NCBI GenBank assembly: GCA_016793845.1
Contig: JAEULI010000134.1
Span: 1 to 33,333, forward strand
Direction: 5' to 3'
Source: Sphingosinicella sp.
GTDB lineage: Bacteria > Pseudomonadota > Alphaproteobacteria > Sphingomonadales > Sphingomonadaceae
Length of the DNA: 33,333 nt
This document shows, piece after piece, positions 30,277-32,065 of this stretch; within the stretch, counting starts at the first letter, position 1, and each line of letters starts with the position of its first letter. The position numbers and the translations under genes are program-made. The notes beneath the pieces are model-generated. The model did not search any database, was not told where the DNA came from, and saw only the letters and a list, made by a program, of their open reading frames with translations.

Positions 30277-31197
30277 TCAGCCCCGGCTGATGTCCGCCAT
30301 GTCGAACGGCGTCGTCTGGTAAATCTGGTTGATCCAGTTGCCGAACAGCAAATGCGCGTGGCTGCGCCAGCGGTTCTGCGGCGTTGCGGCAGGGTCGTCG
30401 CCGGGGAAGTAGTTCTTCGGCACGTCGATCGGCTTTCCGGCGTCGCGGTCGCGGAAATATTCCTCGGCGAGCGACGTGGAATCATATTCCACATGGTTGA
30501 ACATGTGCAGCGATCGGTGCTGCGGGTCTTCGAGAAGGCAGAGCCCCGTCTCCGCGCTCTCGGCGAGCACGGTGATGCCGTGGTCTTCGGGCAGGTCCTC
30601 GCGCCGCACTTCTGTCCAGCGCGAAACGGGGATCGCGAAATCGTCCGAAAAGCCGCGCAGGTAAGGGGAGGCGGGGGCAAGATTGTGGTGTTCGAAGACG
30701 CCGAACGCCTTCTTGTCCAGCGCGTGTTTGGGCACGCCGTGGAAATGGTGCACCGCGGCCTGCGCTCCCCAGCAGATGTTGAAGCTGCCGTGCACGTTCG
30801 TCTGCGTCCAGTCGAACACACGGCGCAGCTCGTCCCAATAGCCCACCTCTTCGAACGGCAGCAGCTCCACGGGCGCGCCGGTGGTGATGAAGCCGTCGAA
30901 ATATTCGTGCCGAATGTCGCTCCACGGCCGGTAGAACGACAGCATATGGTCGGCGGAGGTGTTGCGCGGAACGTGGCCGCTCATCCGCACCAGTGTCAGC
31001 TCCACCTGCAGCGGCGTCGCGCCGATCAGCCGCGCGATCTGCGTTTCGGTGCGGATCTTGTTGGGCATCAGGTTGAGGAGCCCGATGCGGAGCGGCCGGA
31101 TATCCTGCCGCACGGCATCCGCTTCGCCCAGGATCATCACGCCCTCGCGCTCCAGCGTGCTGCGGGCGGGCAGGTCGTCGGGAATCTTGATCGGCAT
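30277..31197 (-). CDS. metA: Homoserine O-acyltransferase MetA; Glu 111 predicts acetyl-CoA use
   Basis: A 306-residue MetA, the first committed step of methionine synthesis, acylating the hydroxyl of homoserine. Catalytic residues match E. coli numbering: Cys 142 ([10 protein letters not shown]), His 235 and Glu 237 (MFNHVEYDS). Residue 111 is Glu ([10 protein letters not shown]); work on the family ties Glu at this position to acetyl-CoA and Gly to succinyl-CoA, so this is predicted to be a homoserine O-acetyltransferase despite the usual 'succinyltransferase' name. The frame is open to 31332, but ATG 31197 ([20 protein letters not shown]) is the family start, with GAGGA 11 bases upstream. 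A structured leader precedes it. Confidence 0.94.
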
Positions 31198-31200
31198 CGA

Positions 31201-31333
31201 CGCGTCTATCCTCGGGTCGCTTTCCGGGTAAGACGCGGTGGCTTGATCCGTTTGGTTGCCGGCTCGGCCACATCCTCCCCGAAGGGAGCGCCACCTTGCC
31301 CGGAAAGCAGGTTGGCGTTGGGCTGAACCCAAC
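31201..31333 (-). promoter_or_regulatory. Structured metA leader, candidate riboswitch or attenuator
   Basis: Reading toward metA: GTTGGG/CCCAAC hairpin (31333-31317); GCTTTCCGGG (31308-31299), which pairs perfectly with CCCGGAAAGC (31228-31219); nested GGTGGC/GCCACC (31295-31290 with 31242-31237); inside it CTCCC-UUCG-GGGAG (31288-31275) and GCCG-AGC-CGGC (31268-31258). CGCGTCT (31237-31231) pairs with AGACGCG (31207-31201), looping out the ribosome-binding site, and excludes or pseudoknots with the 10-bp stem. The segment GGCAACC recalls S-box RNAs, but I cannot assign a known SAM class. Regulation by a methionine-cycle metabolite is inference from context. Confidence 0.6.
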
Positions 31334-31390
31334 TCTTGATGTGATGCCGTCTGTAGGCGGCTTTGCGCCGTCTCTCAAGAGGGAAGGCGC

Positions 31391-31422
31391 GTCCCCGCCG
31401 GGTGTGCGTGCCCGGCGGGGAC
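31391..31422 (-). terminator. GC-rich hairpin after the PEP-CTERM gene
   Basis: A perfect 12-bp stem, GTCCCCGCCGGG with CCCGGCGGGGAC around an eight-base loop, begins 11 bases after the PEP-CTERM stop. The downstream tract (GCGCCTTCCCTCTT) is only weakly T-rich, so termination is probable but may be incomplete, allowing some read-through into metA. Confidence 0.6.
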
Positions 31423-31432
31423 GGCAGGAGCG

Positions 31433-32065
31433 TCAGATCGCGCGGCGGCGGCGCGCGAAGCCGAGCGCACCGAGGCCCATCGCGACGAGCGCGAGGCTGG
31501 CCGGCTCCGGCACGTCGGCGCTGTTGAAGCGCACTTCCGAAAGGCCCGAGGCTTCCCACGCTTCGTAGATGGTGCCGTAGGTGTAGTTGCTGAGGATATC
31601 GAACTGCACGAAGCGCGCGGCGCCTGAAAGCGCGATGGTCTGCGCGGTGATCGGCGAACCGTCGGGCGCACGGTCCAGCGTGCCCGTGAAGATCTCGGTG
31701 AAGCTGGCGCCGTCGAGCGAAACGAGCACGCGGAAGTCCTTGATGCCGCGGTCGAGCGTGGAGATCACCGGCGTGTTGGTGCCGAAGTTGAACTGCCAGA
31801 TGTCCGCGCTCGCGAGGTTGAAGAGCCCGCCGAGGTCGAACGTCACCTGCGCCTTGCTCGCGCCGAGGTCGGTCATCCACATGTTGGCGTAGTTCGAATC
31901 GTGCAGATCGCCCGAAAGGCCGCTGCCGTTGATCAGGTTTTGGGCGTTGTAGGCGCCATTGTTGAACGTGCTGCTGGCGGTGGCGGAAACCGGCGTGATC
32001 ACCGCCGCCTGCGCGGACGCGGCGAGAACGGCGGACGCGGCGGCGCCGAGGAGAAGCTTGAGCAT
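31433..32065 (-). CDS. Exported PEP-CTERM protein with discoidin-like domain
   Basis: A 210-residue secreted protein. Signal peptide at 1-20 (LLLGAAASAVLAASAQA); a galactose-binding/F5-8 type C-like domain from about 22 to 180 (SATASSTFNNGAYNAQNLING; YANMWMTDLG; KDFRVLVSLDGASFTEIFTG; RFVQFDIL; SEVRF); and a C-terminal sorting signal with VPEP (185-188), a hydrophobic helix (LALVAMGLGALGFA) and RRRR. Exosortase cleaves such signals in exopolysaccharide-making bacteria, so one is expected elsewhere in the genome. The frame runs on upstream to 32215 but ATG 32065 gives the clean signal peptide. Confidence 0.85.
   Translation of the reverse strand: MLKLLLGAAASAVLAASAQAAVITPVSATASSTFNNGAYNAQNLINGSGLSGDLHDSNYANMWMTDLGASKAQVTFDLGGLFNLASADIWQFNFGTNTPVISTLDRGIKDFRVLVSLDGASFTEIFTGTLDRAPDGSPITAQTIALSGAARFVQFDILSNYTYGTIYEAWEASGLSEVRFNSADVPEPASLALVAMGLGALGFARRRRAI

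Follow-up and report, generated by a model that had tools for sequence, protein, structure and literature searches.

The metA leader of Sphingosinicella sp. raises the question of which regulatory RNA it contains and how that RNA would act on the gene. The window, that is, the whole 33,333-nucleotide stretch of DNA that was analysed, carries metA on the minus strand at 30277-31197, with its ATG at 31197-31195. The 306-residue product matches PF04204 (426.5 bits) and the NCBIfam model NF047918, MetA_acetyl (461 bits; cut-off 460.5), and its score for the succinyl equivalog TIGR01001 falls under the cut-off of that model. In the leader, an initial annotation had described two mutually exclusive long pairings and proposed a riboswitch of unassigned class. 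The product of the gene upstream (31433-32062, minus strand) is a PEP-CTERM protein (23.8 bits to TIGR02595, against a cut-off of 16), and just past the stop codon of that gene, ahead of the riboswitch, lies a 10-bp GC hairpin, CCCCGCCGGG/CCCGGCGGGG (31420-31393, minus strand), without a T run.

The class can be assigned. When the whole window was compared with all 4227 Rfam families using cmscan, the sole match above a gathering score was to RF01725, the SAM-I/IV riboswitch aptamer, at 31347-31242 of the minus strand (56.7 bits; gathering score 41.1), and all of the model positions (1-99 of 99) are covered. Four matches were obtained at E up to 1, and RF01725 was the only family listed among them on the minus strand, one weaker match of the same clan at this site having been omitted by the program. 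Plus-strand matches to Magnesium-II, sbcD and CRISPR-DR29 each scored under gathering and were taken as chance; the one to Magnesium-II lies opposite the 10-bp pairing described below, over its reverse complement. The RF01725 match is unique within the genome assembly of the window (83% complete), and 44 nt separate it from the start of metA. Judged by its sequence, the metA leader is a SAM-I/IV riboswitch, a known class, and its ligand would, by family membership, be S-adenosylmethionine (SAM). The initial annotation had itself held that a clear match to an established family would make the element known rather than new, and the Rfam search it proposed, RF01725 included, returned such a match.

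The anatomy of the family can be followed through the match, here given in minus-strand order. According to the RF01725 alignment, P1 (31342-31270) pairs ACATC (31342-31338) with GATGT (31274-31270), with the conserved AAGAG following. The alignment likewise places P2 (31333-31317), P3 (31316-31290) and P5 (31268-31258): P2 is unsplit, with six continuous pairs between GTTGGG (31333-31328) and CCCAAC (31322-31317) around the loop TTCAG (31327-31323); P3 contains the conserved CCAACC ... AAGGTGG core and the loop L3 (31306-31300); and P5 joins GCCG (31268-31265) to CGGC (31261-31258). P4 (31288-31275), taken from the sequence and the minimum-energy fold, pairs CTCCC (31288-31284) with GGGAG (31279-31275). 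The 3' strand of PK-2, CGGA (31250-31247), has its partner TCCG (31304-31301) in L3, as indicated by the alignment and by covariation between L3 and the tail. All of the conserved core elements, CATCAAGAG, CCAACC, AAGGTGG and GATG, are present. P5 followed by PK-2, in which L3 pairs with the 3' tail, and a methionine gene (metA) downstream are both features of SAM-I/IV, and the window anatomy agrees with published descriptions of the class (PMC2864571, PMC6890682, PMC5393176). The term riboswitch in the initial annotation is thus borne out by the RF01725 score and by metA downstream, but the unassigned class is not, given the full-length match above gathering and the family anatomy including PK-2. 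That the leader represents a new class is very improbable on the same evidence, even though the junction on which the proposal was built can be drawn from the sequence.

Neighbouring classes are distinguishable from the window leader. SAM-I (S-box, RF00162) shares the core around AAGAG and the P3 strands; nevertheless, the window P2 lacks the kink-turn internal loop, and P5 and PK-2 are present. The SAM-I/IV class corresponds to the SAM-I-IV-variant of Weinberg et al. (2010), and its P2 is without the internal loop found in SAM-I and SAM-IV (PMC2864571). SAM-IV (RF00634) has the P5 and PK-2 subdomain in common with the window, but its description includes PK-1 and P2a/P2b and no P4 (PMC6890682), whereas the window has P4 and a single P2. 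A CTGAA complement to the whole P2 loop TTCAG, as PK-1 would call for, is absent from the window leader. SAM-II (SAM_alpha, RF00521) also lies upstream of metA in other alphaproteobacteria and is the usual metA class in Rhizobiales and Rhodobacterales (PMC4239095); it has a different fold, however, and is not among the four cmscan matches at E up to 1. With RF01725 the only minus-strand family at that threshold, and with a P2 unlike that of either SAM-I or SAM-IV, a SAM-II, SAM-I or other methionine-related leader is extremely unlikely. Within the SAM-I/IV class, the window differs from the crystallized aptamer in two respects. The 3' tail of the latter stops at the PK-2 strand (PMC5393176), while in the window a 44-nt platform with a ribosome-binding-site hairpin follows the aptamer match; and this platform offers the window L3 another partner besides PK-2, over 10 bp.

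Both long pairings of the initial annotation exist on the minus strand. The 10-bp helix consists of ten perfect pairs between GCTTTCCGGG (31308-31299), which shares bases with L3, with PK-2 and with the uppermost part of P3, and CCCGGAAAGC (31228-31219), whose CCCGG is also the inner stem over the ribosome-binding site. The 7-bp stem, CGCGTCT (31237-31231) with AGACGCG (31207-31201), closes a hairpin (31237-31201) whose loop contains the ribosome-binding site GAGGA (31213-31209), with inner pairs to GAGGA in the minimum-energy fold. The 10-bp helix joins L3 to the loop of this hairpin, and the mutually exclusive pairings around the ribosome-binding site are borne out. Because the helix takes up bases that belong to L3, to PK-2 and to the upper end of P3, it is incompatible with PK-2 and with the SAM-bound fold. 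Perfect helices of at least ten pairs arose in 1/300 dinucleotide shuffles of the 133-nt leader and those of at least seven in 143/300; of the two pairings, only that of 10 bp is thus of unusual length. The folding energy of the 171-nt leader lies 5.0 standard deviations below that of shuffles, and its minimum-energy fold contains the 7-bp hairpin with the inner ribosome-binding-site pairs and lacks the 10-bp helix. The junction that had been proposed, a 10-bp helix enclosing a 6-bp helix and two hairpins, can be traced in its pairings, the 6-bp helix being GGTGGC (31295-31290) with GCCACC (31242-31237); however, it is not the aptamer but a competing fold in which P3 and PK-2 are disrupted.

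Covariation was examined in 69 metA and 39 ltaE-like leaders, of which 76 were kept after dropping those at least 0.9 alike, with a permutation test that swaps partners within a gene type and does not preserve relatedness. L3 matches its own PK-2 tail (z -6.0, 0/1000 permutations, 76 leaders), and it does so at stricter similarity thresholds (z -4.6, -3.2 and -2.3 with 31, 13 and 7 leaders). Similarly, the first half of each platform matches the second half from the same leader (z -5.9, 0/1000 permutations, 76 leaders; z -2.9, -3.2 and -2.6 at the stricter thresholds, again with 31, 13 and 7 leaders), while L3, P4 and P5, used as controls against the first half in the same leader sets, gave z from +0.8 to -1.5. 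These covariations argue that both PK-2 and the ribosome-binding-site hairpin are selected. The 2014 work of Trausch et al. on the SAM-I/IV structure reportedly regards a pseudoknot as part of the switch.

We consider it probable that the SAM-I/IV riboswitch lowers metA translation when S-adenosylmethionine is plentiful, alternating between a 10-bp state and a state with PK-2 and the hairpin. With SAM bound, P1, P2, P3, P5 and PK-2 would form; PK-2 would hold L3, and the platform would adopt the hairpin in which the ribosome-binding site is paired, turning translation off. When SAM is absent, L3 together with the upper end of P3 would release PK-2 and form ten pairs with the hairpin loop, which would pull the CCCGG strand off the ribosome-binding site and turn translation on. 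The direction, off with SAM, is suggested by the function of the gene. Control is presumably translational rather than transcriptional: a scan of 31150-31500 for simple patterns found no intrinsic terminator between the aptamer and metA, and transcription termination was set aside as the platform at metA for want of a terminator-like site in that range. The earlier proposal of a metabolite-responsive leader controlling metA translation thus holds in so far as the family and the exclusive pairings around the ribosome-binding site support it, but not in its class, and its metabolite would come from family membership.

In the folding model, either the aptamer was enforced, with the PK-2 bases merely kept free so that the pseudoknot is unscored, or the 10-bp helix was enforced. 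Under these constraints the ensemble energy of the window RNA (L001) is -72.7 kcal/mol with the aptamer and -72.8 kcal/mol with the 10-bp helix, and the unpaired probability of the ribosome-binding site is 0.40 and 0.78, respectively. Among other leaders of the genus, the corresponding energies are -66.9 and -60.4 kcal/mol in L014, where the 10-bp state is 6.5 kcal/mol worse, -72.6 and -74.7 in L020, -68.9 and -65.3 in L022, and -68.0 and -67.5 in L027; the ribosome-binding site goes from 0.40 unpaired in the aptamer state to 0.54, 0.78, 0.72 and 0.69, respectively, in the 10-bp state. A two-state translational switch between the 10-bp helix and PK-2 is plausible. The AUG is predicted to be paired in both states in L001 and L020 (unpaired 0.00 to 0.01), its partner being sequence 5' of the aptamer. 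A pairing of the 31351-31343 region with the metA start was considered and dropped, as it is broken in L022 and L027.

The 10-bp helix turned up in no genomes other than the six of the window's genus, three of which have one mismatch in it; perfect L3-platform runs of 9 or 10 occur, among 108 leaders, in L001, L022 and L027, all of this genus, and the remainder of the genus (L014, L020 and L025) has a single C opposite U. As L3 is identical in all six genomes, the helix has no compensatory change, and as the L020 and L025 leaders are identical, the genus offers five distinct cases. In the comparison of relatives that the initial annotation had proposed, the 7-bp hairpin covaries in metA and ltaE-like leaders, but the 10-bp helix does not. 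A leader of another genus, L016, has the same L3 and no matching platform, and is outside the 15 leaders with a run of at least 6. A general pairing of L3 with the platform in all leaders was not supported, 353/500 permutations being as good (76 leaders). It is conceivable that the 10-bp helix is a by-product, with CCCGG kept for the ribosome-binding site, L3 kept for PK-2 and their complementarity partly due to chance. Switching would then proceed solely through PK-2 and P1, or through a conserved GCCAC that competes with P3 or with P1/P5. The absence of compensatory change, the mismatch in three of six genomes and the restriction to one genus speak for such a by-product; so does GCCAC itself, which many metA leaders carry 3' of PK-2 and which complements GGTGGC of P3 and GTGGC of P1/P5. 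Nevertheless, ten perfect pairs are rare in shuffles, and a match to L3 of this kind arose in 0/2000 shuffles of the platform. Moreover, L020 and L025 offset their mismatch by extra pairs at the other helix end (duplex -22.5 kcal/mol versus -23.1 in L001), and GGTGGC and GTGGC are nearly invariant, leaving no covariation to read for GCCAC. The L014 duplex reaches -18.6 kcal/mol without added pairs, and 39/500 shuffles are as good. We regard the by-product reading as rather doubtful, and presume that the 10-bp helix is used in the cell.

A second aptamer element, P2, is related to the platform over a wider range of leaders. Among the 69 metA leaders, 45 have GACGC in the P2 hairpin together with GCGTC in the platform, three have the first only, nine the second only and 12 neither (Fisher p 9e-6, relatedness uncorrected). 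Six of the nine with GCGTC only are those of the window's genus, and two more of the nine, L011 and L013, carry GGCGC, with G-U pairing. In the permutation test, the P2 loop matches the first half of the platform (z -5.4, 0/1000 permutations, 76 leaders; -3.0, -3.4 and -2.3 at the stricter thresholds) and not the second (z -0.1, -1.3, -0.4 and -0.8, same sets). For 83 held-out leaders of other genes, P2 against the platform gave z -6.9 (67 kept), -5.1 (47) and -2.4 (18), with controls of -3.0, -2.4 and -2.4 for P4 and -2.2, -2.2 and -1.8 for L3; these controls are not clean, so P2 does not stand out at the strictest threshold. Among 93 leaders less than 0.85 alike, 17 scored at least 8, where 3.5 were expected and the maximum over 2000 permutations was 10, and 25 scored at least 7, where 7.6 were expected. 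The matches extend to 11 pairs in L100, ten in L104 and L064 and seven in L183, the last with an unrelated sequence. For SAM-I/IV leaders in general, complementarity of the P2 loop and its 5' strand to the platform thus exceeds chance expectation. Because the matches often include the P2 5' strand, pairing would open P2.

In L104 and L047 the aptamer is followed by a hairpin that resembles a terminator and has a T run; by eye, the P2 match overlaps or abuts its 5' arm, and these are apparently transcriptional versions. The P2 complement coincides with the arm bound to the ribosome-binding region to a greater extent than other placements do (0.69 versus 0.47). The simple idea that the P2 strand opens the ribosome-binding site is nevertheless disfavoured: blocking the match in the isolated platform exposed the site no more than blocking random stretches did (0.40 versus 0.42), the effect being larger in 24/67. 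In the window, no stretch of at least four bases in the first part of the platform is complementary to the P2 loop TTCAG, and the common match is absent for the P2 loops of the genus (TTCAG and variants). Lacking this match, the genus is without the common P2 contact but has the L3 contact, which suggests that one genus swapped the P2 contact for another aptamer loop; in these few, related sequences, L3 may have taken its place, and the wiring of the switching part looks unusual. We tentatively propose, at somewhat less than even confidence, an undescribed switch common to SAM-I/IV leaders, in which the P2 5' strand and loop would pair with the strand of the platform whose other role is to sequester the ribosome-binding site or to form a terminator, P2 being the moving part. 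In the window's genus this partner would have been lost and the task moved to the P3 loop, which would choose between PK-2 and the 10-bp helix. No paper on SAM-I/IV in Sphingomonadales or on its expression platform was found in the open-licence literature searched. The metA leader adds one more SAM-I/IV riboswitch, before a gene for which control of this kind would be expected, and is of value as an entry to the expression platform. The comparison yields a rule that can be put to the test, P2 strand against platform, and the aptamer structure of this class has been solved.

RF01725 was found in 6/6 genomes of the window's genus, in 36/298 sampled genomes of the family and in 56/396 of the order (55 over the cut-off; this sample overlaps that of the family). 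An exact-pattern scan of named genomes gave at least 119 stretches, which by record title are mostly from alphaproteobacteria, with some from Oxalobacteraceae, among the matches listed. One of the aptamers (L096, CAMAXW010000003.1) lies in a record titled as a Klebsiella pneumoniae MAG, which is possibly mislabelled or a mixed bin. From 199 loci, six were off the aptamer pattern (L023, L024, L036, L039, L164 and L182) and two had no readable gene (L044 and L114); protein motifs divided the 191 classed leaders into 69 metA, 39 ltaE-like, four aspartokinase/homoserine dehydrogenase, two tdh and 77 other. The label ltaE is our own, assigned through a motif that we take to mark such genes. A family search of one example per non-metA type returned Beta_elim_lyase (PF01212) for L029, L-threonine 3-dehydrogenase for L019 and aspartokinase with homoserine dehydrogenase domains for L003. 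The leaders of ltaE-like genes include L028, L029, L032-L035, L037 and L038, with PF01212 checked in L029 only, whose NCBIfam aldolase match is under the cut-off. An association of SAM-I/IV with threonine-aldolase-like genes was not found in the literature searched, and genes leading from threonine to glycine are no obvious target for control by SAM.

The platform of the aspartokinase/homoserine dehydrogenase leaders differs from the metA type: in L003, L006 and L008, the P1 3' strand (GGACGATGC in L003) has, by eye, a 9-nt downstream complement (GCATCGTCC). Two SAM-I/IV aptamers per genome were observed in G115 (L021 and L038), G256 (L004 and L031) and G447 (L158 and L176); those of G256 are about 3.4 kb apart, and in G115 one stands before metA and the other before an ltaE-like gene.
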